From Bacteroidales bacterium (GTDB lineage Bacteria > Bacteroidota > Bacteroidia > Bacteroidales > ML635J-15): 47,214 bases of DNA. Below the pieces are notes generated by a model. It had not been told where the DNA came from. It did no database searches and saw nothing but the letters and a program-made list of their open reading frames with translations. Location of the stretch: positions 1 through 47,214 of the forward strand of contig JAQIBY010000072.1 in assembly GCA_027858835.1 (NCBI GenBank), written 5' to 3'. This document shows positions 821 to 46,993 of this stretch, one piece after another. Each line of letters starts with the position of its first letter. Positions within the stretch are counted from its first letter, which is position 1. Both the position numbers and the translations under genes were made by a program.

Positions 821-2257
821 TTAACTTAAAAGTATTTGTTCTATTTCTTCACTCGCTTTTTTCAAAGCTTCCTTTGTTTTGTCTTTTAGTTGTTGTGCTT
901 GTTTTCTTATGCCTGTGATATGGTCAGCTATTTTTTGCTGTTCATTTGGAGCTGGTAAGACCAAAGGGAAGTTTCTTATGGTTGGTATTGTGATGTTTCC
1001 TTGAACAGCACCAATCTTATTTCTTTCAACTAATTTTATCATTAGTGAAGAATTCAAATAATAGGATAAAAAATTCTTTACAATGCCGGAATTTTCAGCC
1101 AAAGTGAACTTTATCATAAAGGACCCAAACGCAAAACCATCTATATTTTCAGGGACTAATGCAACAATTCCAATAGTTCCACTTCTACTGATTAAAAAGT
1201 CATTTTGTTTTACAAAGCAATTTCCAAGTAAATTTCTTGCACTCTCTGGTAAATAAACAACTTCATCAACGCAAATTTCATTTCGCTTTAAATCTTTTAT
1301 TCTCAGAAGTGGCACACCGCTTTCAACATACTCATTGTTAAACGAAGCACCATAAGTAATCTCAGATATGTGCAATCCTAATTTTGACTTTCGGGATTGT
1401 GAATTTTCCATGGATGTCAAAACTTCATTGAAATACGTTTGATGATAAAATGGGTCGTATCTATTTCCTGTTAGCTCATTTGCAGTTGTAGTAAAAATTC
1501 TATTTTTCAACGTGTTTTCAGGCGGTTCAGGCAATTTTATTCCTAACTCGTTCAATAAATAATCGTCAATGCTTGAAAGTATCTTGTCGGCTTCAGCTTC
1601 ATTCTCATTTTTCTGTTCAACAACTTTACTTGTAATTTCTAAAATTCGTTTGTCTTCAATGATTGGGATTGAGAGTAATGCGGGATAATCTAATGCAGGG
1701 CGTGTGCCGCCTGTCGCCCTGCGACTTGCTGATTTTTCGCCAATGTCAGTATTTAAAAACGCCGCAAGCGTTTCACTGATTTTTTTATTGCCAGTGCGAA
1801 TTACACAAACGTGCTGATTAATATTTCCTTCAAATCCTTCGGGAGCAACAGAAGCAACAGCCATACGGCCAACGCCTGTAATTTTAACCAACAAATCGCC
1901 TTCTTTAACTTGGCTACGTTTCAACATACCGTTGTGCGTTTCTTTGTTGATATATTTACAATCGTCAAATTCTAAAATTCCAGTTGATGATAGGTTTTGA
2001 ACTCTTAAAAAAGGTATGCCGTTTCCTTTTTCGGAATAATACTTTTCGCTCTCAGTTGTTTTTGGTGTTGCACCACTTGAAATCCCAATAACATAATCAC
2101 GTAACTTCTTTGGCTCTTTAGACAAAACTTTTTTTTCAAGCTCCAATAATTCGGGAACATAGTAAAAAGGGTCAAGGCGTTTTTCCAATTCACTTTTTTG
2201 TAAAATGAAAACACGGTTTTTGTTTATTATGTTGGATTGTATTGTGTAATTGCCCAT
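821..2257 (-). CDS. hsdS: Restriction-modification specificity subunit (HsdS)
   Basis: The gene encodes 478 residues with the classic two-repeat layout of an S subunit. Target recognition domain 1 is about residues 45-210 (SGATPKTT...GIPFLRVQNL) and is followed by a helical spacer. Domain 2 is about residues 275-440 (YGASFNNEYVESGVPLLRIKDL) and is followed by a coiled coil. The two recognition domains would read the two halves of a split DNA target. The ATG overlaps the stop of the upstream methylase gene (TAATG), which implies translational coupling and a complex of the two products. No separate HsdR gene is visible. Confidence 0.9.
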   Translation of the reverse strand: MGNYTIQSNIINKNRVFILQKSELEKRLDPFYYVPELLELEKKVLSKEPKKLRDYVIGISSGATPKTTESEKYYSEKGNGIPFLRVQNLSSTGILEFDDCKYINKETHNGMLKRSQVKEGDLLVKITGVGRMAVASVAPEGFEGNINQHVCVIRTGNKKISETLAAFLNTDIGEKSASRRATGGTRPALDYPALLSIPIIEDKRILEITSKVVEQKNENEAEADKILSSIDDYLLNELGIKLPEPPENTLKNRIFTTTANELTGNRYDPFYHQTYFNEVLTSMENSQSRKSKLGLHISEITYGASFNNEYVESGVPLLRIKDLKRNEICVDEVVYLPESARNLLGNCFVKQNDFLISRSGTIGIVALVPENIDGFAFGSFMIKFTLAENSGIVKNFLSYYLNSSLMIKLVERNKIGAVQGNITIPTIRNFPLVLPAPNEQQKIADHITGIRKQAQQLKDKTKEALKKASEEIEQILLS

Positions 2258-4416
2258 TATTTCTCCGTTTCGTTAATGTGAGCAATAAATTTTGAGAGCT
2301 CTTTACTAATTTCAATTAGTTCGTTATTATTTGTATTCCTACCAGTTGCATCGTAGCCAATATCTTCGGCAATTGCCATAAAAATTGGGTAATCATCTAA
2401 TGTGGTTTGTTTTGCCAAAAAGTATTTTTCGGTTAATTCTTCCTTGAGCAAATTCACTTTGTCAGTAAATGAGGTTTGAATTGTTGATTTATCTGCTCGA
2501 ATAATTTCAGTGATTTCCTTTTTACTGGCTTTGGGATTTAATGCTTTTGCATCGGCTTCTAATTTCTTAATTGTTGTTGTTTTTTCTTTTTCCCATTTCT
2601 CAATAGTTTCAATATAGCTACTGTCTTTCTTTATTGACTCTTTGAGTTTGTTTTTTTTGTTGTTGATTTTTTCGGTTTGATTCTTATTATGTTTTCTCAG
2701 GAACAAAACAGAACTCTTTACACCTGCACCAGTGGCACTAAAAGCGGTTTGAGGCATAGAAACAACGGCAACAATACGAAACATTTCTTCAATGTTATCA
2801 CGTACATATTGCATACTACTGTTTGTCAGGATACCATCAGGAATTACAATAGCCAAATAACCGTGTTCAATTAAAAATTTATGGCATTGCTCCAAAAACA
2901 ATACTTCGGTACTTTGTCTATCTCGTAGGCTTTTCTTTTTGGTCACTTCGGCTTTAATATCTAACCAGTCAATTTCTTTTGTACCCAACGTGTATAAACT
3001 CAAATATGCTTTTTCAGAAAGCTTTATAGAACTGCCAAATGGCGGATTTGTAATAATAAAATTAAACGAATTATATTTAAACTCTTTATTATCCGATTTT
3101 TTTTGCATTTCAAGGTCGGTTAAAAGTCCGTCCGATGCAATTACGTTTGTGTGTCCGTCATCGTGAATAATCATATTCATTTTGGCTGTTCGGGCTATTT
3201 GGTCGTTTATTTCGATGCCAAAAAGGTTCTTTTCTGCAAAATTGTGCCAATATGTGTAATGGTCTTTTTCATCATTTACAGGGTGGTAATATTCATTTGC
3301 CTGTTCTCTAACTTTATCCAACGCATAAAGCAAGAAGCCACCGCTTCCGCAACTTGTGTCAAGTACCCTTGATTTGTGGTCTATGGGTAAACTGTCAACA
3401 ATAAATTTTACAATTGGACGAGGTGTGAAATACTGTCCAAACTCACCACGAAAGTAACTGCCCATAAATGTTTCAAAGGCTTTTCCTTTGCTATCAAGGT
3501 CAGTTTTATTCAGATTTATTCGCTGAAAATATTTTACAATCGTAAGGGTTTCTTGTGCAGTTAAAGAAATACCGTCTTTGAAAACTTCTGGCGCATCTTT
3601 TTCCCCAATTGCATAAATTTTTTTAATGCGTTTTAAAAGGTCTTCTGGTTCTTCGTTACGGAAAATCTGAAAATCGTAAGGGTCTCCATTTTTTCGTGGG
3701 TGTTTTTCGTCCCATATTTTACAGAAAATTAGTTTGTCCAATTCGTCAAAAGCAACACTTGGATTTCGTTGTCCACCGCCCCAAAGTGCTTGATGCGATT
3801 GTGTAAAAATCTTTGTAAGTTCACTTTCAGTAACAACTTGAAGTTCAAAAAACTTTTGCTTTGCATTTGGGTCTGGCTCGCCTATAATACCTATGTCCTC
3901 TGTGTTAATATGTAAAATTCCACCTTTAACATATTTGTATGGAGCAAGTTTTTTAATCCCAAATTGTGGAATATCGGGGATTTCAATTCTGCTTTTCGGC
4001 TTTTTGTCAGGTACTTCGTAATATTGATTTTTAATTCGGGAAGTCGTCCAAACATATTTTGCCCCTTCGGCAACAGCATAGCTGTAAGCTTGGTCAACTG
4101 CAATATTAAATTGTTGGTCAGTTAAATCTTCTTTTTTGCACTCAACTAAAATGTATGTTTCTTCGCACTCATTATCATTATAAACAATGATATCCGCTTC
4201 TTTGGTTTCCGAACCCATTTGAACGGAAACAAATTGTTTAATTCTGTCAACGGAATAGCCATAAATCAGAGCTAAAGTCAAGAAAGTTTCTGCTTGTACT
4301 TTCTCTTCAGGATTATTGTAATTCCTCTTTTTATTTTGATGAATATATGTGATAAAATCTCGGTTCTCGTCAAACCGTATTAGTCCTTTATCTATTCCTG
4401 TATTAATTAAATTCAT
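2257..4416 (-). CDS. Fused nuclease-methyltransferase subunit of a Type IIB/BcgI-like or Type I-like RM system
   Basis: The gene encodes 719 residues. The N-terminal part is a PD-(D/E)XK nuclease-like domain of the HsdR_N type, with D75 in EADIIVYN and E92-x-K94 in LVECKKED. A HsdM-type N6-adenine methylase follows, with the SAM motif DTSCGSGG at 353-360 and catalytic NPPF at 457-460. The C-terminal region is charged coiled coil. Nuclease and methylase on one chain, coupled to a separate S subunit, is the arrangement of BcgI-type enzymes, which cut on both sides of the site. That explains the missing motor subunit. Whether it cuts cannot be read from sequence. Confidence 0.88.
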   Translation of the reverse strand: MNLINTGIDKGLIRFDENRDFITYIHQNKKRNYNNPEEKVQAETFLTLALIYGYSVDRIKQFVSVQMGSETKEADIIVYNDNECEETYILVECKKEDLTDQQFNIAVDQAYSYAVAEGAKYVWTTSRIKNQYYEVPDKKPKSRIEIPDIPQFGIKKLAPYKYVKGGILHINTEDIGIIGEPDPNAKQKFFELQVVTESELTKIFTQSHQALWGGGQRNPSVAFDELDKLIFCKIWDEKHPRKNGDPYDFQIFRNEEPEDLLKRIKKIYAIGEKDAPEVFKDGISLTAQETLTIVKYFQRINLNKTDLDSKGKAFETFMGSYFRGEFGQYFTPRPIVKFIVDSLPIDHKSRVLDTSCGSGGFLLYALDKVREQANEYYHPVNDEKDHYTYWHNFAEKNLFGIEINDQIARTAKMNMIIHDDGHTNVIASDGLLTDLEMQKKSDNKEFKYNSFNFIITNPPFGSSIKLSEKAYLSLYTLGTKEIDWLDIKAEVTKKKSLRDRQSTEVLFLEQCHKFLIEHGYLAIVIPDGILTNSSMQYVRDNIEEMFRIVAVVSMPQTAFSATGAGVKSSVLFLRKHNKNQTEKINNKKNKLKESIKKDSSYIETIEKWEKEKTTTIKKLEADAKALNPKASKKEITEIIRADKSTIQTSFTDKVNLLKEELTEKYFLAKQTTLDDYPIFMAIAEDIGYDATGRNTNNNELIEISKELSKFIAHINETEK

Positions 4417-6821: not shown

Positions 6822-6926
6822 GCCCGGACAGTACTTGATGCTATTGGAGGTCATGCTCCTTCCGGGCACACTGGGTTAGCAGAGGTTAACCAAAATGGCT
6901 GTCTGAGTTTACCAAGCTCAGGCAGC
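6822..6926 (+). other. Two adjacent RNA hairpins in an intergenic gap
   Basis: First hairpin: GCCCGGA (6822-6828) pairs with TCCGGGC (6861-6867), with an inner GGAG/CTCC pair at 6846-6859. Second hairpin: GCTGTCTGAG (6898-6907) pairs with CTCAGGCAGC (6917-6926), ten pairs including one G-T, followed by TTT. They fill the 142-bp gap before the next start codon. They may be a partial terminator, an mRNA processing site or a small RNA. Confidence 0.45.
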
Positions 6927-6956
6927 TTTCACCCCAAACTATTAAAATTAGAGATT

Positions 6957-7352
6957 ATGAGTAAATTAAACACAATTACAGCGTTAGCAAAAAAGTTGTC
7001 ATCAGAATTTGGTGAAACTGTAGAAGGAGCAGGATACAATATGTTGTATCAAATGCTTAGGGTTGAGCCTAAAAACAGCCCTAAAACACTTAAGTCAATC
7101 CGAAAGTCTATTAGCAATAAACTTGAAGAGGCAGGTATTACTAATAGTCGATTTAGGCTTGTTGCAGAGGTATATGCCGATAGCAACGAAGCGAAATTTG
7201 AACTTATGTTATTCGAATTTGAGACCGCAACACTAAACTCAGATAAGGTGTCCGACTTGCTTAAAAATGCATTTGAAGTAATTGAAGAAGAAGCCCCGGA
7301 AATCTTAAAACGTAGAGCAATTAAAGCTAATGAAAATGATGTAACGGTGTAG
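6957..7352 (+). CDS. Hypothetical protein, 131 aa
   Basis: ATG at 6957 lies just after the paired hairpins; the upstream in-frame extension overlaps the previous gene and the hairpins and is unlikely to be translated. The product is 131 residues, helix-rich at both ends with a central beta segment (NSRFRLVAEVYADSNEAKFELMLFEF). I recognise no domain. It is spaced 4 bp from the following gene. Confidence 0.55.
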   Translation: MSKLNTITALAKKLSSEFGETVEGAGYNMLYQMLRVEPKNSPKTLKSIRKSISNKLEEAGITNSRFRLVAEVYADSNEAKFELMLFEFETATLNSDKVSDLLKNAFEVIEEEAPEILKRRAIKANENDVTV

Positions 7353-7356
7353 GATT

Positions 7357-7584
7357 ATGGAAAAACAAGATGTAAAAGTAGGGGCTAAAGCAATTTACTA
7401 TCCGGTAATACTGCCAGATGGTTCAAAGCCTTCAAGATTTCGTACAACTATACTTTCAGAACCACGGGAAACCAGCAACGGGTTGCTTGTGTGTAAAATA
7501 GCGGGAATTTCAGGAGCAGTTTCAATCAAGCATTTAGAGTTGAGACAAAAAAAATCAGGGAGTAATGAGCTCCCTGGTTCTTAA
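7357..7584 (+). CDS. Small hypothetical protein, 75 aa
   Basis: The product has 75 residues, is beta-rich and basic, and starts 4 bp after the previous stop. The 3' end contains the inverted repeat CAGGGAG (7556-7562) / CTCCCTG (7570-7576). Read on the minus strand this is followed by a T-tract, like the hairpin at 5334. I recognise no domain. Confidence 0.5.
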   Translation: MEKQDVKVGAKAIYYPVILPDGSKPSRFRTTILSEPRETSNGLLVCKIAGISGAVSIKHLELRQKKSGSNELPGS

Positions 7585-7652
7585 AACATCTTGTTCAATT
7601 CTTAACTACAATACTAATCAAACAAAATGTCTGATAACAAACATTCAAAAGT

Positions 7653-9179
7653 ATGAATAAAAAGAAAACGAACCAAGAAAAAGTAATACAAAAATCATAT
7701 AATGAGATGCTGACAATCAATTTTAAGCTTTCAAAAACATTATTCGATACATTTTACAATGCTTACAATGAAACGAGACCATTGCGCAGCAAGCTTAAAC
7801 TCCAGCATCGTGAGTATTACTATACATTAATTCGAGTAGCACGCAACCAGATCATAAAAAAACAAAAAGAAGCCCCCGGTTCATTAAAGCCCGGAGCCGT
7901 TAAAATATCAGTTAATTCTGTGATGCTATCCAAGAAAATGTCCACAACGTCCAGAACAATCAGAAATTACAATAAAATACTCTTAAAATTAGGATTAATC
8001 AATAAGGTATTCCACGGTGTTAATCGAAATTACGAGATTTATTTTAACCCATTTTTGATGTTCTATACCGAGCTGAATAATCCCGAAAAATTGCCTAAAG
8101 AGCTTCAAAATTCTCAGGCTCTCTCAGAGTTAAATTCCCTTTTGTTACGGAAAAGGTTTCCCCAACTTACAGAGTTGAATAGACATTCTAATAAACAAAT
8201 AAACAATGCGGAGCATTCAAATCAGAACGATATAGCTGATAATTCAAATGCAAACACTGAAAATAGGCTGTATTCAAGCCCTTTAAGTGGGATTTATAGT
8301 ATTTCTGATTTGGATGCAATGTTATCACGAAGCTATCGCTTCGAATGCAATGACACCATATGCAGTGACACTGGGTTTGCAGATGCCAGCTGTAAAAATG
8401 CAGAAATCGATCAGTCGAATGTTGTCCCCGGAGATCAAAAACCACTCCGATCCAGCACCCCCAATTCCGCAGCCCCCCCTCAAGCTGATGATGCTCGAGA
8501 TAATTCCAGTACTGCATCCGTAATTGAGCCGATGTCCGCAGAGGCTGATGATAGCAAGAAAAATAAAGTGTTTAGAATTGAAAAAATTAACCAAAAAACA
8601 ATTAGGCAGCAACTTAAGCTGCAAAGCTTAGATGATTTGCGAATTGTTTACGCTCAAATCCTTTACAATTTTGCGCTGGATAGAATTCCAACATGGAAGG
8701 AACGTGTTTATGATGATACTGCAGGAGAAGTGATTTTGTACATTTCTGAAACATACTTTGGTCACTGCAAGTCAAAAGCCCAGATGTCTCGTGAGCTTGA
8801 ATTGTTTGAGAGAGCAGTTGAGACTGCTGCAAGATTTATCAGAAAAAAACTATTAAGTGGAAAATGGGCGCAAATGTGGCAAATGCCCGGTACTTGGTTC
8901 AATGAAAATTATAATAAGGGATTCCGTCAGCAGCTCAGGTACTTGAAGGAAAAGCGTGAAAAAGCTTATAAGCAGAATCTTAACAAACAGCGATTAAATG
9001 TTAATCAAAAACTCAATGAAATTTTAGTTGAGTATTTCTCAACAGATTATGACAATTACTACCAGTTACTTGCACGTGTTCGAAACACAATTCCATCACG
9101 TGAAAAGCAATTCAAATATTGCATAAAAAACAAAATACAAGAGGTTTCTAATCATTTTAAAAACTCTAAAATTGCTTAG
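7653..9179 (+). CDS. Winged-helix protein, candidate replication initiator
   Basis: The product has 508 residues. Residues about 75-135 form a winged-helix-like unit (VMLSKKMSTTSRTIRNYNKI, then a hydrophobic strand pair ending NYEIYFNP), typical of phage and plasmid initiators that bind origin DNA. Residues 180-310 are low-complexity linker rich in N, S, D and A. The C-terminal 200 residues are helical and basic with a conserved-looking WAQMWQMPGTWFNENY segment. It is the largest early gene and the only one that looks like an initiator; a general transcription regulator is the alternative. Confidence 0.55.
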   Translation: MNKKKTNQEKVIQKSYNEMLTINFKLSKTLFDTFYNAYNETRPLRSKLKLQHREYYYTLIRVARNQIIKKQKEAPGSLKPGAVKISVNSVMLSKKMSTTSRTIRNYNKILLKLGLINKVFHGVNRNYEIYFNPFLMFYTELNNPEKLPKELQNSQALSELNSLLLRKRFPQLTELNRHSNKQINNAEHSNQNDIADNSNANTENRLYSSPLSGIYSISDLDAMLSRSYRFECNDTICSDTGFADASCKNAEIDQSNVVPGDQKPLRSSTPNSAAPPQADDARDNSSTASVIEPMSAEADDSKKNKVFRIEKINQKTIRQQLKLQSLDDLRIVYAQILYNFALDRIPTWKERVYDDTAGEVILYISETYFGHCKSKAQMSRELELFERAVETAARFIRKKLLSGKWAQMWQMPGTWFNENYNKGFRQQLRYLKEKREKAYKQNLNKQRLNVNQKLNEILVEYFSTDYDNYYQLLARVRNTIPSREKQFKYCIKNKIQEVSNHFKNSKIA

Positions 9180-9181
9180 CC

Positions 9182-9460
9182 ATGGGAACTACTTTTAGTC
9201 GTGATAACAAACCGGGTCCAAAGAATAGTAAATTCAAGATGACAATTTACTTTCCACACAATCGCCAAAAACCGGAAACATGGTACTCATTTCCGAAATA
9301 TGACAAAGAAGGTGCGAAAGCACAATTTGACAGAATGAAGCGGACACTAATTGAGAATAGGCATCATGGAGACGTTACCTCATCATTTTTCCGTGACATA
9401 CAAACAGATGAGGTCATAGTCAAGATGTATGGCGGTGAAATCGTAGAGTCTAAACTTTAA
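9182..9460 (+). CDS. Small hypothetical protein, 92 aa
   Basis: The product has 92 residues, starts 2 bp after the candidate initiator, and is basic with an alternating strand/helix pattern (KMTIYFPHNR, then a KAQFDRMKRTL helix). It is probably translationally coupled to the gene before it. I recognise no domain. Confidence 0.55.
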   Translation: MGTTFSRDNKPGPKNSKFKMTIYFPHNRQKPETWYSFPKYDKEGAKAQFDRMKRTLIENRHHGDVTSSFFRDIQTDEVIVKMYGGEIVESKL

Positions 9461-37176: not shown

Positions 37177-37235
37177 AGATGTAATATTAGTTAATAGCAT
37201 GGATAACAGTTTAATATATTATAATTAAAGTGTAA

Positions 37236-37278
37236 TTCATAATCACGAGGTCGGCGGTTCAAGCCCGCCTCTCGCTAC
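37236..37278 (+). other. tRNA 3'-half, probable attachment-site remnant
   Basis: The sequence reads as a tRNA from the anticodon loop onward: loop TTCATAA with CAT anticodon (37236-37242), variable loop, T-stem GGCGG/CCGCC around TTCAAGC (37253-37269), acceptor strand TCTCGCT and A. The 5' half is absent. A split at the anticodon loop is where many tyrosine recombinases insert elements, so this is likely one end of an integrated element. A proper terminator follows at 37281. Confidence 0.65.
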
Positions 37279-37280
37279 GA

Positions 37281-37313
37281 GAAAGGAAAGCAAAGCTTTC
37301 CTTTCTTTGTTTT
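37281..37313 (+). terminator. Terminator following the tRNA 3'-half
   Basis: GAAAGGAAAGC (37281-37291) pairs with GCTTTCCTTTC (37295-37305) around AAA and continues into TTTGTTTT. It is the natural transcription stop of a tRNA gene, which supports the view that chromosomal flank lies to its right. Confidence 0.75.
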
Positions 37314-37336
37314 CGGCTGTAATTGATTTATAAGCT

Positions 37337-37381
37337 GCGAGTAGGTTTTTAGGAAAGAGCGTCCCGATGTATATCGGGAAG
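37337..37381 (+). repeat. tRNA 5'-half-like repeat, copy 1
   Basis: GCGAGTA, then AGGAAAGAGCGTCCCGA, a 6-nt loop and TCGGGAAG. The same series recurs at 39238-39285. TCCCGA/TCGGGA form a hairpin. After GGGAAG the sequence departs from copy 2, which continues into the tRNA-like 3' half. It may be a broken tRNA-like gene or a dispersed Bacteroidota palindromic repeat. Confidence 0.45.
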
Positions 37382-37586
37382 TTATGGATAGTTTATCTAA
37401 ACGCCTCAATTATAAAAAGGATTACGAGAAATTAAAACGACTTGAGTTGACTTGTTTAATTAATAAATGTTTTATTCAACAAGTTTGTTGATAATTAATT
37501 CTTAGCTTGATCGAAAAATTGCCACGTAAATCATATATTTGGACTTTGGGTTATGTGTGTGTAGATTATAATTTCAAAAGAGTAAG

Positions 37587-38321
37587 ATGAGTTTATTGCA
37601 TTTTCCATTTCCAGAAAGGAGTAGTGAGCAGGAAAAAGATGTGTATTTTATAAAATCACAATCAACAAGTTATCTTTCCCAATGCTATTTGAAAAACACT
37701 TCTTCGGAAGCAATAATAATATCAACCCAATTCTTTTCAATTGAGGAAATATTTCAGATGTCATTTCAGTATGTTACACCAACTTATTTGAACCGGGATT
37801 CTTCTTCTTCTAGATTTGCGACAATAATTAGAGAGTCTTGTAATTTATATGAAATCTTGTGTCGTAAAGTTTATAGTGAATTGTTTAACCTTGACTTAGG
37901 TGTTAAACTCAATATTTTTAATTATCTGTCATTAGATTATTTTTTTAAATTAAGGACAGATGAACTTCGATCCCCAGTTTTTCATAGTTATATGCGACAA
38001 AATTCAATACTTAATCCTTTCTATAGTTTGTCAGGATGGGAAGGAAACAAAAAACTAGAAGGAAACAATATTCCTAAATGGTGGGATGCTTACAATAAAA
38101 TAAAGCATGATGTAAATGATAGTAATAAATATGCGAATTTAGATAATGCCTTTTATTCATTTGCGGCCTTATTTATGGTGATTAGGAAAGTTTATGGTGA
38201 TGGATTAATCTGCGGATATTTAAGAAAGCCGACCTCAAAGAAAAACATGTCATATGAAGTTTATCCAATTAGAACATCAAATATTTTTATTGGTGAAGTA
38301 TATTATGGTTCAAAAAATTAA
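37587..38321 (+). CDS. HEPN-like protein, possible abortive-infection factor
   Basis: The product has 244 residues, helical and soluble. The segment PKWWDAYNKIKHDVND followed by a long hydrophobic helix (NAFYSFAALFMVIRKVYG) resembles HEPN-type proteins, where a basic residue and KH cluster near a helix end form an RNase site. TATATTTG at 37534-37541 matches the -7 promoter element. The gene is one of two lying between direct repeats of the tRNA 3' end, a typical place for defence cargo. Confidence 0.5.
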   Translation: MSLLHFPFPERSSEQEKDVYFIKSQSTSYLSQCYLKNTSSEAIIISTQFFSIEEIFQMSFQYVTPTYLNRDSSSSRFATIIRESCNLYEILCRKVYSELFNLDLGVKLNIFNYLSLDYFFKLRTDELRSPVFHSYMRQNSILNPFYSLSGWEGNKKLEGNNIPKWWDAYNKIKHDVNDSNKYANLDNAFYSFAALFMVIRKVYGDGLICGYLRKPTSKKNMSYEVYPIRTSNIFIGEVYYGSKN

Positions 38322-38499
38322 AGGTTTTTAAAAATTGTTATCGACCAGCTCGTTGACTATGTCGAGCAGTAGATATGAGCTGATTTTTGAAGCGATAAAT
38401 CTATTTGAAATTCATTGGTAAAAAGTTTAAAAGCTTGATTAGTGACTCTATGTTAAGTCGTTGAAATTAAACCATTGAAACATTAATTATCAAAAATTT

Positions 38500-39198
38500 A
38501 TGATACTATTACAAATCACAGACAAAATTATCCTTGATCGACTTGTTGAAATTGAGGCAATATTAGAAACATTAAAGACAAGTAAAGGGTTATCAGCTGC
38601 TGCGGGAGCAATAATTGGTATGGTATTTACATTGTTAGTGAATATTGTTTGGACAGAAATAAGGGAGTGGCGAAAGAGAAAAAGAGAATCTAAAAAGCAA
38701 GTGGGAAAACTAAAAAAAGAAATTAGCGTCGTTTTTAATAATATTTATCGATATTATAGAGAGTGGTCAGGATATAGGCTGCAGTGGGTTTATATTGCCA
38801 AGGAATATGAAGTGAGTGGTAAAGAAAACTTTGTAATGGATGATTTCGCACAAATTTGTCATTCTCAAATTGAAATCTACAAAAATAAGCTCTACGATGA
38901 AGAAGCACGATTGTACAAGAATGTAATTATTATGCTAAATGAATTAAAAAGCATTTCAATTTCAAGCTTTAAGGATCAATACTCTTCTTTATTGGAATTT
39001 GACATTAACATTCATAAAAAAGTAAAAAGTGAAAATGACCTAGAAAAAACGTATAAATTATTAAAAGATGAAACAATTAAGAACCAAGAGAAATTGAGAT
39101 TGATTTGTGGGACAACTGAAGTGCAATTACTATCTGCATTAGATAAAAAGAATCAGTTTAATAATGAACTAATCGATTTATCAGTGGTGGGAAATTAA
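38500..39198 (+). CDS. Membrane-anchored coiled-coil protein, 232 aa
   Basis: The product has 232 residues. One hydrophobic segment covers residues 32-52 (LSAAAGAIIGMVFTLLVNIVW), then a basic stretch (REWRKRKRESKKQ) and long charged helices. The topology is an N-terminal anchor with a large cytosolic helical part. No catalytic motif is visible. It follows the HEPN-like gene after a 178-bp gap without clear signals, and may be its partner in a two-gene defence unit. Confidence 0.55.
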   Translation: MILLQITDKIILDRLVEIEAILETLKTSKGLSAAAGAIIGMVFTLLVNIVWTEIREWRKRKRESKKQVGKLKKEISVVFNNIYRYYREWSGYRLQWVYIAKEYEVSGKENFVMDDFAQICHSQIEIYKNKLYDEEARLYKNVIIMLNELKSISISSFKDQYSSLLEFDINIHKKVKSENDLEKTYKLLKDETIKNQEKLRLICGTTEVQLLSALDKKNQFNNELIDLSVVGN

Positions 39199-39236
39199 TA
39201 TTTAGGATTAGTTACTGATGTTAAAGGTTGACAAAT

Positions 39237-39314
39237 AGCGAGTAAATGTTTACAGGAAAGAGCGTCCCGAACTTGCTTCGGGAAGGTCGGCGGTTCAAGC
39301 CCGCCTCTCGCTAC
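39237..39314 (+). repeat. tRNA-like pseudo-element (5'-half copy 2 plus 3' half)
   Basis: The stretch is tRNA-sized: AGCGAG (39237-39242) can pair with CTCGCT near the end, an anticodon-like stem TCCCGA/TCGGGA encloses ACTTGCT, and the T-arm GGCGG-TTCAAGC-CCGCC is perfect. The D-arm does not fold and the loop lacks the universal U33, so it is not a working tRNA. Its last 31 nt (39284-39314) repeat 37248-37278 exactly. Confidence 0.55.
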
Positions 39315-39322
39315 AGGAAAGG

Positions 39323-39351
39323 AAAGGGTTGCAGATTTGCAGTCCTTTTTT
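39323..39351 (+). terminator. Terminator after the tRNA-like element
   Basis: AAAGG...TGCA pairs with TGCA...CCTTT around GATT and ends in a run of six Ts (39346-39351). It matches the arrangement after the first tRNA fragment: 3' half, then terminator. Confidence 0.6.
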
Positions 39352-39566: not shown

Positions 39567-40226
39567 TTACTTGGCAGTGTATGTTGGCTCCCATTGAATT
39601 GGATAAACCAAAGTCTTATGAAATTCATTTTTAAGCTCATAAATATCAAGTTCGTTTTTGTGGATAGGATCTCCGTTTTCGTCCATAGTGAAGCCATTGT
39701 AAAATGGTCGAAAGATGCCAAGTACCTGATCGCATTTATTTGCGATATGCCGTGAGGAATTAAAGTCCTTGAGCATTGGATGTTTTCTCGTAGTTGTGGT
39801 TTTTTGAGCGATGTTTACAGTGAAAACAAGCCTTATATTAAAATGAGAAGCAAGAAAAGCCATTGCATTCACAAATTCGTCAACATCTCCGTATGCCATA
39901 TCCCATGGGTTATATTTATTGAGGAAATCACTGTTGTCAATAAACACAGTTGAAATCGGATTGCTCTCTAAAAGCTGCATTAACTCAACAAAAGCACCGA
40001 CTCCAAAGTATTCAAAATCAGTATTGATTGACAGATTTTCACTCATGCTGCCGTCAAAGTTTTCAATCAAACGTTCAAGTTTTTCTTTGTATTGCTGATA
40101 ACTAATAAGTAATACATTTTCTGTTTTTGCTAAATCGTTTGCGAGTTTAAGGCAAACACTGGATTTTCCTTCTCCTTCTGATCCTCCGATTGCAATTAAG
40201 CCATTTTGTAGTTTAATAGTTTCCAT
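39567..40226 (-). CDS. DnaB/RecA-like stand-alone ATPase
   Basis: The product has 219 residues. Walker A is GGSEGEGKSS (13-22), a Walker B-like strand is ISTVFIDNSDF, and the late segment KHPMLKDFNSSRHIANKCDQ matches the DnaB-helicase pattern of P-x-L-x-D-L-R-x-S-x-x-I-x-x-x-A-D. Only the RecA-fold core is present; the DnaB N-terminal domain is missing. It is the last gene of a five-gene minus-strand module with FtsA- and FtsZ-like products. Its role there is unknown; a ParA/MinD-type function is possible. Confidence 0.65.
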   Translation of the reverse strand: METIKLQNGLIAIGGSEGEGKSSVCLKLANDLAKTENVLLISYQQYKEKLERLIENFDGSMSENLSINTDFEYFGVGAFVELMQLLESNPISTVFIDNSDFLNKYNPWDMAYGDVDEFVNAMAFLASHFNIRLVFTVNIAQKTTTTRKHPMLKDFNSSRHIANKCDQVLGIFRPFYNGFTMDENGDPIHKNELDIYELKNEFHKTLVYPIQWEPTYTAK

Positions 40227-40266: not shown

Positions 40267-41373
40267 TTATTGATATTGTAATAAACCAATTGCAGTCGCG
40301 TAGGATGGGGCATTTAGTCTGTCAAACTCTTTGATATTGTCATTGCATCGGGGTATGCCAATACGTACTTCATAACCTGTCATATCCTTAATCAATAAGT
40401 CCAAATGCTTTAATTTTGCTGCTCCGCCGGTAATGACAATGCCCACATTCAGTCTGTCTGCATAGCCGGATTGCTCAATCTGAAATTTAATGGCATAAAT
40501 AATATCTTTCATCCGTTCCTGAATCACAAAAACCAGATCATTCAGGGAGATGGTTTTTTCTTCCCGCCCTTTGAGCCCCGGCACCTGAATAACGACACCT
40601 TTTTGGGTTTTAGACTGTAAGGCGGATCCATACTGAATTTTCAATTCTTCGGCTTGTGCCTGCAAGACGGAAAAAGCCTGTTTGATGTCCGAGGTAACCG
40701 TATTACCGCCTATAGGGATGACAGCTGTATGTTGCAGGACTTCGTTGGAGAACACTGCCAGGTCTGTTGTGCCACCACCAATATCAACAAGCACAACACC
40801 TTCTTCTTTCTCTTTTGATGATAAAACTGAATGAGATGCCGCCAAGGGGTCAGGAACCAATTGATTTATTTCTAGACCAGAAAGTTCAATTACCTTTTTA
40901 AGATTTTCGATTGACGTGCTGTGTCCGGTAATAATATTGAAATCAATAATAGTTTTTGATTCAGAAACGATAGGTTTAGAAGTAGATATTGCCTGAATGA
41001 TTTCATCTCTGTTCTCAATCAAAGTAGGATATGTACGTTTTATCAAGCTTATGTAATCAAGCTGAGCAATTTCAAATTCCTTTGGTTTCAAATCAAAAGC
41101 TAATCGCTTTTTTATCATTTTAATGTGTTGTCCATTGCAGTTGACGTTTACTGTTTTAATTTGTATGCCGGTTTGTTTAAAAATGTCAATAACAGATGCC
41201 TTGATTACTTTGACCGTTTCAGCAATGTTTAAAACAAGACCTCTTTTTATGCCATTGCTAGGCTGCTCGCTTATCGCAATAATTTCATTTATATGATTTG
41301 AATTTGAAGTGGCCAATACCATTACAAGTTTGCTGCCACCAAGATCAAGTACTGCTGTATAGTGCTTATTCAT
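40267..41373 (-). CDS. FtsA-like actin homologue lacking the membrane-targeting tail
   Basis: The product has 368 residues. The phosphate-1 loop is AVLDLGGSK (D10), phosphate-2 is VDIGGGTTD (D197-D204 region), and the adenosine motif is VITGGAAKL (about 314-322). Residues about 77-150 form the FtsA-specific SHS2/1C domain (VNVNCNGQHIKMI), which separates it from ParM and MreB. The chain ends at YATAIGLLQYQ, the point where cellular FtsA continues with a linker and an amphipathic helix that binds the membrane. So it should bind ATP and perhaps FtsZ, but not attach to the membrane by itself. Confidence 0.85.
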   Translation of the reverse strand: MNKHYTAVLDLGGSKLVMVLATSNSNHINEIIAISEQPSNGIKRGLVLNIAETVKVIKASVIDIFKQTGIQIKTVNVNCNGQHIKMIKKRLAFDLKPKEFEIAQLDYISLIKRTYPTLIENRDEIIQAISTSKPIVSESKTIIDFNIITGHSTSIENLKKVIELSGLEINQLVPDPLAASHSVLSSKEKEEGVVLVDIGGGTTDLAVFSNEVLQHTAVIPIGGNTVTSDIKQAFSVLQAQAEELKIQYGSALQSKTQKGVVIQVPGLKGREEKTISLNDLVFVIQERMKDIIYAIKFQIEQSGYADRLNVGIVITGGAAKLKHLDLLIKDMTGYEVRIGIPRCNDNIKEFDRLNAPSYATAIGLLQYQ

Positions 41374-41380
41374 GATTTGC

Positions 41381-42175
41381 TTATTTTTCTTTTGATTTTA
41401 AGAGTTCACTGTTTTTTATTAGTTCGGAAATTTCATCAAGCAAAACATCAGCCACAAGCATGCTTAGTTGGTAGGTATTGATGAGTAGTCTTGACTTGTC
41501 TTCATTCCAATGTATCCAATACGGTTGCCTTGATTTCCCACCTGCAATCTTCGGCTCATGGAATTTTACATTAAAATTTTTCTCAATTTCATTCAAGCCA
41601 TCAAGGGTGTTTTTGTTCGGATCAAAATAACCTACACCGGCAATAATTATAACCGAGAAATCATGTATGAATTCCGATGAAAACAAGAGTTTTTTCCTGT
41701 TATCCAATTTTTCAACATCAACTACAGCATCTTTCGTTTTAGGGCTTGGATTTGGGTTTACTTCGGTTATGAATACATCTTCATGAAAATCAATGTTTTG
41801 ATTTCCATTTTTATTAAAAATCCTGTTGTAGAGCTTTTGATAAGTAAGCCAAGTTCTGCTGGTGCCATTGTTTGTGCCATTATCTATTTTCAATACTTGA
41901 CCTTTGTAAGGATACAGTGGCGTCTGATATGCAATGGGCGATTGCTCCATAATCTTTGCTTGATCATAATCTTCCATTTCTTTCCATCCAGAAAAGTTGT
42001 TTGCAATTTCATTTTCATACTGATTAGGTTTGTCTTCTTTTGAGATTGAAGCTTCTTTCCCAATGATAAGAATGTCTGCAAATGGATTGCCGGTTCCAAC
42101 ATATTTGTATATGTCATCCAAATTTGAAACGTCAAGCTCATTCAATAAGTTGTTAAAGAGTTTTTTCCTTTTCAT
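41381..42175 (-). CDS. Uracil-DNA-glycosylase-superfamily-like protein
   Basis: The product has 264 residues. The order of motifs follows the UDG superfamily: GNPFADILIIGKEAS (29-43) for the water-activating loop, FITEVNPNPSPKTK for the strand-and-loop after it, VIIIAGVGYF for the central strand, and INTYQLSM (232-239) in place of the usual H-P-S segment. The usual His is Gln (Q236), so ordinary uracil excision is doubtful. It starts 8 bp upstream of the FtsA-like gene. A -7-like TATTTTTG lies at 42212-42219 (minus). Confidence 0.5.
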   Translation of the reverse strand: MKRKKLFNNLLNELDVSNLDDIYKYVGTGNPFADILIIGKEASISKEDKPNQYENEIANNFSGWKEMEDYDQAKIMEQSPIAYQTPLYPYKGQVLKIDNGTNNGTSRTWLTYQKLYNRIFNKNGNQNIDFHEDVFITEVNPNPSPKTKDAVVDVEKLDNRKKLLFSSEFIHDFSVIIIAGVGYFDPNKNTLDGLNEIEKNFNVKFHEPKIAGGKSRQPYWIHWNEDKSRLLINTYQLSMLVADVLLDEISELIKNSELLKSKEK

Positions 42176-42572: not shown

Positions 42573-44636
42573 TTATGAAATTTCAGAATCAGTTGAATTT
42601 TTATTTAGAGAAATTGTGTTTTCAAAAGAGCGTATATTTGGTTGTGAGGCTACAATATTTTTGAACTGAGTTTTGAGATGATTTCTGTAGAACAGGTGGT
42701 CGCCTTTCTCAATGAAGTCAATGTTTTTAGTAAGCATTTTTTTTGCGATATTTTCTATCTCTTCCTTTTTTAGTTTTCGTTTATCGCTTAGGTGGTTGGA
42801 AAGGGATAGTAGCAGTTTTTGTTCGTTTATTAAAGTGTTTACAGCCAGTTTTTTCGCTTCACTAATTGCTGCTTTGATATCTTTCTCAATATTTTTGATT
42901 TGATGATATGTGTTATTGTTTTTTCTTTCGGGAATTTCATAAGTAATTGGAGCTCTTCCCATGCCATTGTTTTTATACATGTTTGATAAAAAATAAGTTG
43001 CTTTTTCAATATCACTAGATGCTCCGGCAGTCAAATTTTCTTTTCCGAAAATCAGTTCTTCTGCAACGTAACCTCCAAGCATCATTGCAACGCGGGGAAT
43101 CAATTCTTTACGAGAAATATAATCCCAAGGTATGCTTGAGAGAACAAAACCCTGACTGTCTGCATCGGTTGTTATTGAATATATGATATTTGGAATGACT
43201 TTTAATAAAACAATTGATAAAACTGCATGTCCACTTTCATGAACTGCTGTGATCGCTTGCAAATCATCTTGTTTGTTTTTACGGACATCTTCAAGTGTTG
43301 TTGATATTGTTGTGTCTAAGTAATACACAGATTCATTATCTTTGAGAAAATCACATGTCATTTTTTTATCTTGTATCGAAAAGTGTAAACTGTCAACAGT
43401 AAGGTTGTTTAGAAAGATGGCAGAATAGAAGTAGCTGATTTTACTTTTTAAAATCTGGTGCATTGAGGTAAATATAGGTCGAACGCCTTGGGTTGGATAG
43501 ACTCCTTCTTTGTAAATTAACTTGTGAATGGATTTGTCAAACACTATATTTAGTTTAAATCTTGCTTTGAGGTCTTTTGCATAATTTACTAATTCCTGCT
43601 CTATAATTTTCTGATATGAATTTTTGGAGAAAGCCGGATAAATAATATGAATATTACCTAATCTGGCGATTTGCTCATTTCTAAATCGCTCTTGCAGTGC
43701 CATTTTAATACATGGAACGGTAATTTTTTGTGATATCTTATTAAAATCATCTGCATCAATATCAGCACTGAAGTTATTACTCATAGTATAGGCTTCATCA
43801 AGGTTTCCAATGACAAATATTAAGGCTTTTGTGAAGTTTTTGAATGATGGAGTTTTTCCAATTTTAATGACTTGTTTTAAGAATTTTATTGTTTCATCTG
43901 CAGTAAGCTTTAATAATAAATTTTCAATATCTTTCTCCAGATGAATATCAAATTGTTCCCCTGCTAATTCAATAATTGTTATGTATTTATTTTCAGGGAT
44001 AAATCGTACTTTTTCATTTTCATTAACTGTTATTCCAATCTCATTGCAGAACAATTCTATTTTGTTCATAACAAAACCGTTTTCAACTTTAATGCCAGCT
44101 TTTAGTAGATGCGATAACTTCGTTGTGAAGTCCTGTAATGACCAAAGACCATGTTTCCATTCAAAATGCTGAATCTTTCCTGAGTCTATTAGTTCCCAAA
44201 TCATTCGGTTTTTGTCATTTTTAATTTCTTCTTTGAATGGTCCTGAAATTGTTCTACTGTGTTGAAATTCGTCGAGCGCAATAATGACAGGAGATGAATC
44301 TTTATTTTCACATAATTCTTCCAGGGATTCTTGAAAAGAAAAGCTACCTTCTTTATTGCCTAAATCAAACTTGTAGTAAATGTCCTGATAGTTAATTAAT
44401 TCAACCAAGCGATTAATTACAGAGGTTTTACCTACGCCTGTTAATCCCCAAAGGTTGATAATGGCAGGTCTTTCTTGTAATTCTGGGAAAAAGTACCAAC
44501 TACTAAGATTGTCAATAATTTCATCAATGATTTCATCAATTCCAACGAATTCTTGTTTTAAAGTGCTTCTAGCTTGGTCAAGTACTGCATGTTTTCTTAA
44601 AAAATCGTCCTTTATTTCTAAAAATTTTGCGTCCAT
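42573..44636 (-). CDS. Clp-type AAA+ ATPase fused to FtsH-type (M41) protease
   Basis: The product has 687 residues. An AAA+ module opens it: Walker A GLTGVGKTS (64-72) and Walker B IIALDEF (118-124). Near 370-395 comes a Clp-like small domain (YKEGVYPTQGVRPIFTSMHQ). Then follows an M41 metallopeptidase with H466-E-S-G-H470 and the FtsH-like MLGGYVAEELIFG and GASSDIEKAT blocks that supply the third zinc ligand. FtsH normally has its own AAA domain and two membrane spans; here the ATPase is Clp-like and no span is present, so it is a soluble protease. It has its own operator-promoter. Confidence 0.85.
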   Translation of the reverse strand: MDAKFLEIKDDFLRKHAVLDQARSTLKQEFVGIDEIIDEIIDNLSSWYFFPELQERPAIINLWGLTGVGKTSVINRLVELINYQDIYYKFDLGNKEGSFSFQESLEELCENKDSSPVIIALDEFQHSRTISGPFKEEIKNDKNRMIWELIDSGKIQHFEWKHGLWSLQDFTTKLSHLLKAGIKVENGFVMNKIELFCNEIGITVNENEKVRFIPENKYITIIELAGEQFDIHLEKDIENLLLKLTADETIKFLKQVIKIGKTPSFKNFTKALIFVIGNLDEAYTMSNNFSADIDADDFNKISQKITVPCIKMALQERFRNEQIARLGNIHIIYPAFSKNSYQKIIEQELVNYAKDLKARFKLNIVFDKSIHKLIYKEGVYPTQGVRPIFTSMHQILKSKISYFYSAIFLNNLTVDSLHFSIQDKKMTCDFLKDNESVYYLDTTISTTLEDVRKNKQDDLQAITAVHESGHAVLSIVLLKVIPNIIYSITTDADSQGFVLSSIPWDYISRKELIPRVAMMLGGYVAEELIFGKENLTAGASSDIEKATYFLSNMYKNNGMGRAPITYEIPERKNNNTYHQIKNIEKDIKAAISEAKKLAVNTLINEQKLLLSLSNHLSDKRKLKKEEIENIAKKMLTKNIDFIEKGDHLFYRNHLKTQFKNIVASQPNIRSFENTISLNKNSTDSEIS

Positions 44637-44661: not shown

Positions 44662-44697
44662 TAAAAGTATTTATGCATTTCGCCAAAACATGACGTA
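44662..44697 (-). promoter_or_regulatory. Operator-promoter copy 2, for the AAA-M41 gene
   Basis: Read on the minus strand: TACGTCATGTTTTGG (44683-44697), 13 bp, then TACTTTTA as the -7 box (44662-44669). TTTTGG takes the -33 place. The same arrangement with identical spacing precedes two other genes at 45136-45171 and 45197-45233. Confidence 0.7.
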
Positions 44698-44717
44698 GTG
44701 TTGTGGATTTTGATAAT

Positions 44718-45122
44718 TTAAGAAAATCCAAGAATGGAAATTTGATTTGTATCAGATAATGAGTCAATAAAAATAATTTCCGGTTTGTTTGATTTGTTGA
44801 CACTTAGGAATTGCTCAATTGTGTCAGCATAATCCATGAATTTAAGCTGTGTTTCTGTCGTTAAACTAATGTCCACCCAAATTGATTTTAGATTGTGATG
44901 CTTTGGAAGTGTTTTCAGCGTATCAATCAAGGGTTGCTTGGTTGTGATTTCGGTTTGCTTCAGAAGCAGTATAATGCGTGTTGCATTTTTTGTGTTTTGC
45001 AGGAAATCACGTAAATCAACACTGATAAACCCTGGTTCCAAAATATGTTCAATAAGGGTGTGCAAGGCACTGAATACCTGATTTTCATTTTTTATGATGT
45101 TTATAATTTGTGGTGGAATCAT
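44718..45122 (-). CDS. Stand-alone FtsZ C-terminal (activation) domain
   Basis: The product has 134 residues. It aligns along its whole length with the second half of FtsZ (about residues 187-316 in E. coli). SALHTLIEHILEPGFISVDL matches core helix H7-H8 and the T7 loop; D36 and D39 stand at the two catalytic aspartates (NVDFADV in FtsZ). LKSIWVDISL matches the GVLVNITGG strand, KFMDYADTIEQFL the following helix, and EIIFIDSLSDTNQISILGFS the final strands (VVIGT...VTVVATG). The GTP-binding half with GGGTG is absent. It could cap or activate host FtsZ at one end. It has its own promoter, so it is not a chance fragment. Confidence 0.8.
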   Translation of the reverse strand: MIPPQIINIIKNENQVFSALHTLIEHILEPGFISVDLRDFLQNTKNATRIILLLKQTEITTKQPLIDTLKTLPKHHNLKSIWVDISLTTETQLKFMDYADTIEQFLSVNKSNKPEIIFIDSLSDTNQISILGFS

Positions 45123-45135
45123 ATCTTACTTTTTG

Positions 45136-45171
45136 CAAAGATGTGGACGGATTGCGCCAAAATGTGACGTA
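45136..45171 (-). promoter_or_regulatory. Operator-promoter copy 1, for the FtsZ-domain gene
   Basis: Read on the minus strand: TACGTCACATTTTGG (45157-45171), 13 bp, then CATCTTTG (45136-45143) as the -7 box. The start codon lies 13 bp beyond. Copy 3 faces away from it, 25 bp to the right, so one regulator could control both directions. Confidence 0.7.
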
Positions 45172-45196
45172 GTAATTTGTTCATTTGATTTTTTTA

Positions 45197-45253: not shown

Positions 45254-45325
45254 ATGAAAACACAGGAAAAACAAATAGAGACTCCGAATCAGCAAATTAA
45301 AATGATTCGAAACAGTTTGCACTAG
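45254..45325 (+). CDS. Very short ORF under the shared operator, 23 codons
   Basis: ATG at 45254 and TAG at 45323-45325 give a polar 23-residue peptide beginning MKTQEKQIETPNQQ. It lies 20 bp past the -7 box of operator copy 3. It may be a leader peptide, an antitoxin-like peptide, or the surviving start of a longer gene cut by the rearrangement on its right. No family can be assigned to so short a chain. Confidence 0.4.
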   Translation: MKTQEKQIETPNQQIKMIRNSLH

Positions 45326-45839: not shown

Positions 45840-46865
45840 TTATAAGTTCGTATTCAACAAGTTAAAGCCTGCATTTAAGAGCATTTTTGAAAATTCTAAA
45901 CCGTCAATTAGTTGAATTTCATTTTCAGTCGCAATTTTCTCCGCTTGTTCATTGAAAGTGTCTGCTGATGTAATCACCCAAGCAATTTTATTGTAACCAT
46001 CGTCAATGCTCTCCTTGTTAGTTTTATAGTCCAAAATTTGATTTGTTCCCCATTCGTTGACGTTGCCTTTGTGAAACTTTGCTTGAATGTAGATTATCAA
46101 CTTTATATTCTCAAAAACAGCTACAATATCAGCATCTCCTTCTTTGTCTCTTGCGTTCTTGGCAGGAATTGTAACTTCATTTGCGCCAATAGTTTTAAAA
46201 TATGTCTTTACTAACTTTTCAAATTTGTCAGGGTTTAATTCTGTTTTAATAGATTCCAGAACATGGCTTGCTGTTTTTTCTACGATTATCGAATGGTGGT
46301 GTATTGGTTTGTTCTCTTCATAGTTTGTGATGCTTTTTTCAATATTCTTTTTCAAGTCATTAATTGAGCCATTTGTTTGGCGAATTTTCATTCTTGATGT
46401 CAGCTTAGCATCAGCAAATTTTGCTCTAGAAACATTTTTATATAAAACTTTCACTTTTCTGGCAAATCCCAAATCGTAAACTTTTCCACTTTCTGAAATA
46501 AGATGCGTACCATTTGTTTTAACTTTCTCATGGCTCCAAGTTTTAAGGTCATCGGAATAAGCATCACTAATCAATAAAGGCTTTTCATCAATAATTTCGC
46601 AAACAAAAAAGGTTCCCCAACTTGGCACTATTACAATATCACCTTTGCTGAATTTTAAAAATCGCCAAAGATTATGTCTAGTTCGAGGAACATCTCCCCA
46701 CTTCTCTTTAAATTTTCCATTAAAATAAGTCCAATCATCTTCGAGCACTTTGTGAATAAATTCTTTGTCTGTGAAATCAGAGAATCCAATTGTTAAAAAC
46801 CCTTTGTTAAGTAAAGGATAAGACAGCTTTGCTTTGTGCGAAATCCTGTGTAACCAATAATTCAT
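45840..46865 (-). CDS. Mrr-type restriction endonuclease with N-terminal reader-like domain
   Basis: ATG at 46865 is chosen (MNYWLHRISH); an in-frame ATG at 46910 adds 15 basic residues without support. The product has 341 residues. The N-terminal half is a beta domain (FSKGDIVIVPSWGTFFVCEI) like modified-base readers. The C-terminal half is an Mrr_cat fold: a helix with EKLVKTYFKTIGANEV, then GDADIVAVF and YIQAKFHKG, giving the D...Q-x-K site of Mrr nucleases. It would cut DNA carrying foreign modification (Type IV). The gene fills a cassette between two attC-like palindromes. Confidence 0.8.
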   Translation of the reverse strand: MNYWLHRISHKAKLSYPLLNKGFLTIGFSDFTDKEFIHKVLEDDWTYFNGKFKEKWGDVPRTRHNLWRFLKFSKGDIVIVPSWGTFFVCEIIDEKPLLISDAYSDDLKTWSHEKVKTNGTHLISESGKVYDLGFARKVKVLYKNVSRAKFADAKLTSRMKIRQTNGSINDLKKNIEKSITNYEENKPIHHHSIIVEKTASHVLESIKTELNPDKFEKLVKTYFKTIGANEVTIPAKNARDKEGDADIVAVFENIKLIIYIQAKFHKGNVNEWGTNQILDYKTNKESIDDGYNKIAWVITSADTFNEQAEKIATENEIQLIDGLEFSKMLLNAGFNLLNTNL

Positions 46866-46993
46866 AATTGTAAATTTTAAAAACCGCCTACTCTTTTCGG
46901 TTTTCAGCATTCCCGTTTTTCTATAAACTTATAATGTCAGTACGTCAAACCATGTCGTTGATGAATTACACGGTCGTTTTTTTTAACATAGCA

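Follow-up and report, generated by a model that had tools for sequence, protein, structure and literature searches.

A mosaic FtsA paralogue without a membrane anchor and a candidate FtsZ C-terminal domain beside an AAA+/M41 protease in a Bacteroidales genome

The window (the whole 47,214-nucleotide stretch of Bacteroidales DNA analysed here) carries a cluster of five genes, all on the minus strand. In order of transcription, these encode a 134-residue protein with an ATG start that is a candidate FtsZ C-terminal domain (44718..45122; Q134 below); a cytosolic 687-residue protein combining an AAA+ module (Walker A and B motifs) with an M41 metalloprotease (HExxH motif; 42573..44636); a 264-residue protein that matched no family and resembles uracil-DNA glycosylases by eye only (41381..42175); a 368-residue FtsA paralogue lacking the C-terminal linker and amphipathic membrane helix (40267..41373), which starts approximately 8 bp after the preceding gene and lies 3.3 kb from Q134; and a 219-residue DnaB/RecA-like ATPase (39567..40226), whose counterpart in the sister species G028 adjoins a half-FtsA. 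The host chromosome has a normal ftsZ (408 residues) and ftsA (448 residues), and FtsZ_C is matched nowhere in the genome except in this ftsZ, on contig C4.

A 43-bp attachment-site repeat that duplicates the 3' end of tRNA-Met borders the cluster (39284..39326, plus strand), and a second copy (37232..37291, plus strand) borders both a phage-like element and a 2-kb cassette of two open reading frames (244 and 232 residues; 37232-39326) that lies between the copies. Contig C49 carries the intact tRNA-Met, and after it, where that contig ends, comes a gene that by eye resembles a tyrosine recombinase. Because the cluster lies beyond the last of the repeats, beside what appears to be the tRNA's own terminator, and because the G028 cluster likewise abuts a tRNA-Met repeat, it more probably forms an accessory island of the chromosome than a part of the phage-like element on its left, although the contig break leaves some doubt. 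The description of Q134 as a mobile element gene, as implied in a previous sequence-only reading, is thus doubtful, the cluster being on the chromosomal side of the repeat. Elsewhere in the window, a phage-like or plasmid-like block (approximately 5000-32000) with almost no PHROGs matches encodes a lytic transglycosylase-like protein (by eye), an endolysin-like amidase, a 1248-residue helicase-like protein and proteins of 736 and 261 residues, and restriction genes are found near the window ends (821-4416 and 45840-46910), comprising some that by eye resemble type I restriction-modification genes and one for an Mrr-type restriction protein.

The FtsA paralogue is a firmer and more interesting object than Q134. 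It scored 261.5 bits against TIGR01174 (cut-off 175.85) and 1.6e-38 against PF14450, and it is 49% identical to the host FtsA over its length, with 11 residues missing near subdomain 1C. Its sequence ends at GLLQYQ (residue 368), whereas the 448-residue host FtsA includes an acidic linker and a membrane helix (KRGKFFEKIKNTIVKSL). Of the 262 genomes of the order in which FtsA was matched at E 1e-50, just this one and G113 had two such matches. Six annotated FtsA records inspected in plasmid and phage collections were rejected as accessory FtsAs, as they belonged to ordinary ftsQ-ftsA-ftsZ clusters, and our literature search found no mobile element described as carrying an accessory FtsA.

Within this protein, close similarity to the host is confined to one module. 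Residues 188-310, including subdomain 2B (40444..40812, minus strand), are 77% identical to the host chromosomal FtsA (81% in residues 216-290) and 77% identical to the chromosomal FtsA of G028 (the two chromosomal proteins being 76% identical to each other), compared with 54% between residues 191-310 and other FtsAs of the order; the rest of the paralogue is 31-48% identical and no nearer to the host than to other FtsAs. Relative to both chromosomal FtsAs of the genus, synonymous sites in the module are saturated and pN is 0.13-0.16, which argues that the module has long been under purifying selection. FtsA requires its subdomain 2B to interact with FtsZ (PMC4281207). In the G028 cluster, the half-FtsA (182 residues) has a different 2B, and DNA identity to this fragment reaches 95% only after residue 310, with a sharp breakpoint at 310/311; from these comparisons, it appears that the module corresponding to the FtsZ-binding part has been swapped. 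This module, which would bind the FtsZ tail, is the only host-like part of the cluster FtsA, and it differs in the sister species, where the truncated FtsA may simply be decaying.

Q134 is a real gene and a singleton. The minus-strand frame, whose 134-residue product the sequence-only reading had described, opens with ATG, spans 134 codons and is coding-like in this frame only (codon score of 0.148; the remaining five frames score -0.19 to -0.42), with codon use that is normal for the cluster; both of the T7-loop aspartates that the reading had named (D36 and D39) are present, within the string PGFISVDLRDF, and the GTPase domain with its GGGTGTG motif is indeed missing from the open reading frame. 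The conserved glycine-rich block MGxGxxxGxxRA is also absent, and the T7-like loop reads SxDxxD, with S34 replacing the asparagine of the NxDxxD found in FtsZ. The claim that the gene has its own promoter held in part: a promoter-like block lies just upstream (TACGTCACATTTTGGCG; 45151..45173, minus strand), but it duplicates that of the next gene, between Q134 and the AAA+/M41 gene (TACGTCATGTTTTGGCG; 44677..44699, minus strand). Divergent from the Q134 promoter is a 23-codon remnant (MKTQEKQIETPNQQIKMIRNSLH; 45254..45325, plus strand) of a 101-residue gene that is intact on contig C109 of the same genome (L126, 8946-9251). The paralogous intergenic region there (L126, 9330-9410) has a single promoter block and no Q134, next to the intact divergent 101-residue gene and the start of a protease gene. 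Given that Q134 is flanked by both copies of the block, comparison of the two regions indicates that it was most likely inserted as a unit of approximately 474 bp. The wider L126 region (6824-9410) encodes a WYL regulator, a 290-residue protein that by eye resembles uracil-DNA glycosylases, the 101-residue membrane-like protein and the first part of a protease gene; it appears to be a second, degraded version of the protease locus, set within a defence-like island.

Orthologues of the same length, for which the sequence-only reading had suggested a search, were not recovered: none was found in the genome itself, in 31 genomes of the family, 393 of the order or 375 of the phylum, nor in plasmids, phages, IMG/VR and GTDB contigs or approximately 85,000 species genomes, the contig scans being able to detect close relatives only. 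Weak matches within the order were rejected as orthologues, as their alignments revealed pieces of larger, different proteins, and a 172-residue open reading frame that follows the protease in locus L141 and looked FtsZ-like by eye was likewise rejected (HHalign P = 0.084). IMG/VR scans using the protease, the FtsA paralogue, a 717-residue element protein or the host FtsZ alone as queries returned nothing. Separately, approximately 12 viral contigs in IMG/VR (L219-L232; 4.8-66 kb) encode FtsZs of approximately 310 residues that stop right after the C-terminal domain (at ATGFDNE and similar endings), without a linker or tail peptide, and judging from these endings they are possibly phage FtsZs unable to bind FtsA. 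Several genomes of the order also have tandem ftsZ genes, two or three on one contig (for example, G061:C11:31233-34217 and G099:C83:8187-11399).

Whether Q134 derives from an FtsZ C-terminal domain was assessed by profile, pairwise and structural comparisons. Family searches detected no match at sensible E-values in Pfam, NCBIfam, PHROGs or PADLOC, and neither PF12327 nor any other Pfam family was matched up to E 10. Direct alignments were more favourable. Globally aligned to an FtsZ C-terminal-domain profile, Q134 outscored 1,496 of 1,500 shuffles and, in a same-length control, all 1,011 random 134-residue pieces from other translated frames; its local score was not outstanding, and semi-global scoring with free ends was discarded as yielding trivial alignments. 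HHalign against a diverse FtsZ C-terminal-domain profile gave a score of 20.96 over 99 collinear columns (its own P = 0.0074), reached by none of 300 shuffles and none of 224 decoys; with phage FtsZs added to the profile, the score was 21.5, reached by 1 of 400 shuffles and 1 of 407 decoys (Gumbel p = 0.003). However, 3 of 900 real, small, unrelated open reading frames reached equally high scores, over 19-30 columns. By BLASTP, 29 residues of Q134 aligned to the host FtsZ (E = 0.039, with that one sequence as the database), and in an unbiased search of 1,478 proteins (approximately 54 of them FtsZs) the top five matches were all FtsZs, at E = 0.14 and worse, from phages and Legionella, aligned in a single register and in part over the full length.

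Structure prediction was less supportive. From its single sequence, AlphaFold modelled Q134 with a pLDDT of 49.5, and the confident FtsZ C-terminal fold that the sequence-only reading would lead one to expect was not obtained; a Foldseek search with this model, which we judged meaningless, returned no match at E 0.001. The order of elements in the model, H-H-E-H-E-H-E-E, agrees with that of the FtsZ C-terminal domain. Adding nine phage FtsZ rows lowered the pLDDT to 41.0, again with no fold, and this loss of modelled confidence argues mildly against kinship with FtsZ. The proposed domain match is partly supported: it has the collinear alignment (p = 0.003-0.007), the FtsZ order of elements and the FtsZ-topped BLASTP list in its favour, and the lack of any family match against it.

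Two explanations of Q134 have to be weighed. It may be a small alpha/beta protein that belongs to the protease cluster and has no relation to FtsZ, with the T7-like string and collinear match arising from chance and selective reading, an explanation to which we assign a little under an even chance. Consistent with this, Q134 matches no family, the single-family p-values are only 0.003-0.007, unrelated open reading frames can equal its HHalign score, AlphaFold yields no confident fold even when given FtsZ rows, and the protease gene in other genomes is flanked by differing small open reading frames. Chance does not readily account for a score that none of 524 nulls reached over 99 columns, for several FtsZ lineages matching in one register or for an FtsA paralogue in the same cluster. 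Alternatively, Q134 may be a strongly diverged FtsZ C-terminal domain, which the data suggest without establishing and which we hold as a serious but tentative possibility; this estimate discounts the single-family p-values for the choice of one family among many, and is raised by the FtsA neighbour, as an FtsA paralogue without a membrane anchor makes an FtsZ-directed function of the cluster more credible.

Relatives of the AAA+/M41 protease are spread over many phyla and retain the HExxH and Walker motifs down to approximately 30% identity. A WYL regulator frequently accompanies them: approximately 12 of the 55 AAA+/M41 neighbourhoods screened contained a close relative of one such regulator. 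None of these 55 neighbourhoods contained FtsA or Q134, so the two division pieces are not constant members of the protease system.

Our best explanation, which we put forward tentatively, is that an accessory cluster at a tRNA-Met integration site holds partial copies of division proteins, next to a cytosolic AAA+/M41 protease, that engage the host FtsZ. In Escherichia coli, division is disturbed by FtsA that has lost its membrane helix. In the cluster, the unanchored FtsA would bind the tail of host FtsZ, and the bound FtsZ could be held off the membrane or presented to the protease, such that switching on the system would stop or slow division; if Q134 is an FtsZ C-terminal domain, its T7-like loop might engage FtsZ at the nucleotide face that is left exposed, where the sequence-only reading predicts that it would cap filaments or trigger GTP hydrolysis. 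Against this explanation, we count that Q134 has no family match or orthologue and fails to fold in AlphaFold even with FtsZ rows, that it has lost the T7 asparagine and the glycine-rich block, and that the screened protease neighbourhoods lack both division pieces.

Other roles for the cluster seem less probable. The division pieces could act as baits that lure phage proteins targeting FtsZ or FtsA, with the AAA+/M41 protein as the effector that is switched on, and a precedent for guarding FtsZ exists, in that CapRelEbc senses the complex of phage T7 Gp0.4 with FtsZ (PMC13423816). The variation of 2B between sister species is as an arms race would give, and the WYL regulators that accompany the protease elsewhere are typical of defence loci; however, the division pieces are absent from other protease loci, and we regard such a role as unlikely. 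Less likely still in our estimation would be a purely proteolytic arrangement, in which the unanchored FtsA is an adaptor that brings FtsZ to the protease for degradation: the same-strand cluster with its closely spaced FtsA gene, the conserved HExxH and Walker A/B motifs and the purifying selection on 2B agree with it, but FtsA and the protease are not known to make contact, and relatives of the protease work without FtsA. A broader conjecture, also improbable, is that the island makes a soluble partial FtsZ and an unanchored FtsA, with a host-matched and exchangeable module, beside the protease as baits or adaptors that couple divisome state to immunity or growth arrest. Finally, although FtsA is truncated in the sister species and Q134 is a singleton, we doubt that the two are functionless remnants of captured ftsA-ftsZ DNA, as the reading frame of the cluster FtsA is open throughout, with saturated synonymous change and low pN in residues 188-310, and Q134 has the codon use of its cluster.

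Foreign control of FtsZ has so far been known through small, unrelated inhibitors. If our best explanation is correct, an FtsZ-binding module that follows the host within a mosaic, unanchored FtsA would clearly exemplify molecular mimicry directed at the divisome and provide a ready tool for pulling FtsZ off the membrane, and Q134, should it prove to be a free-standing C-terminal domain of FtsZ, would offer a natural experiment on how the T7 loop alone affects filament ends.

Compared with known systems, the cluster protease is like FtsH and other M41 proteases in having an HExxH peptidase and an AAA+ module in one chain, but its AAA+ module is ClpB-like with a D2-small domain, it scores 67.3 bits against TIGR01241 (cut-off 600) and its relatives are often found beside WYL regulators. 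Q134 recalls the FtsZ C-terminal domain (the PF12327 region) in its length, predicted order of elements, PG-x-I-x-VD-x-x-D string with D36 and D39, and end at GF[S/E], and departs from it in an identity of 23-28% at most, the absence of a PF12327 match, the change of the T7 asparagine to S34 and the lack of the MGxGxxxGxxRA block, the GTPase domain and the tail. The paralogue shares with FtsA a TIGR01174 score over the cut-off, the DIGGGTTD phosphate site and a 2B close to that of the host, and differs in being a mosaic, in lacking the linker and membrane helix, in having lost the 11 residues near 1C and in not adjoining ftsZ. Like SulA, MciZ, Kil, T7 Gp0.4 and CbtA, the pieces encoded in the cluster would be predicted to act on host FtsZ; however, none of these inhibitors is described as a piece of FtsZ or FtsA in the literature searched, whereas the cluster contains a certain partial FtsA and a possible partial FtsZ.
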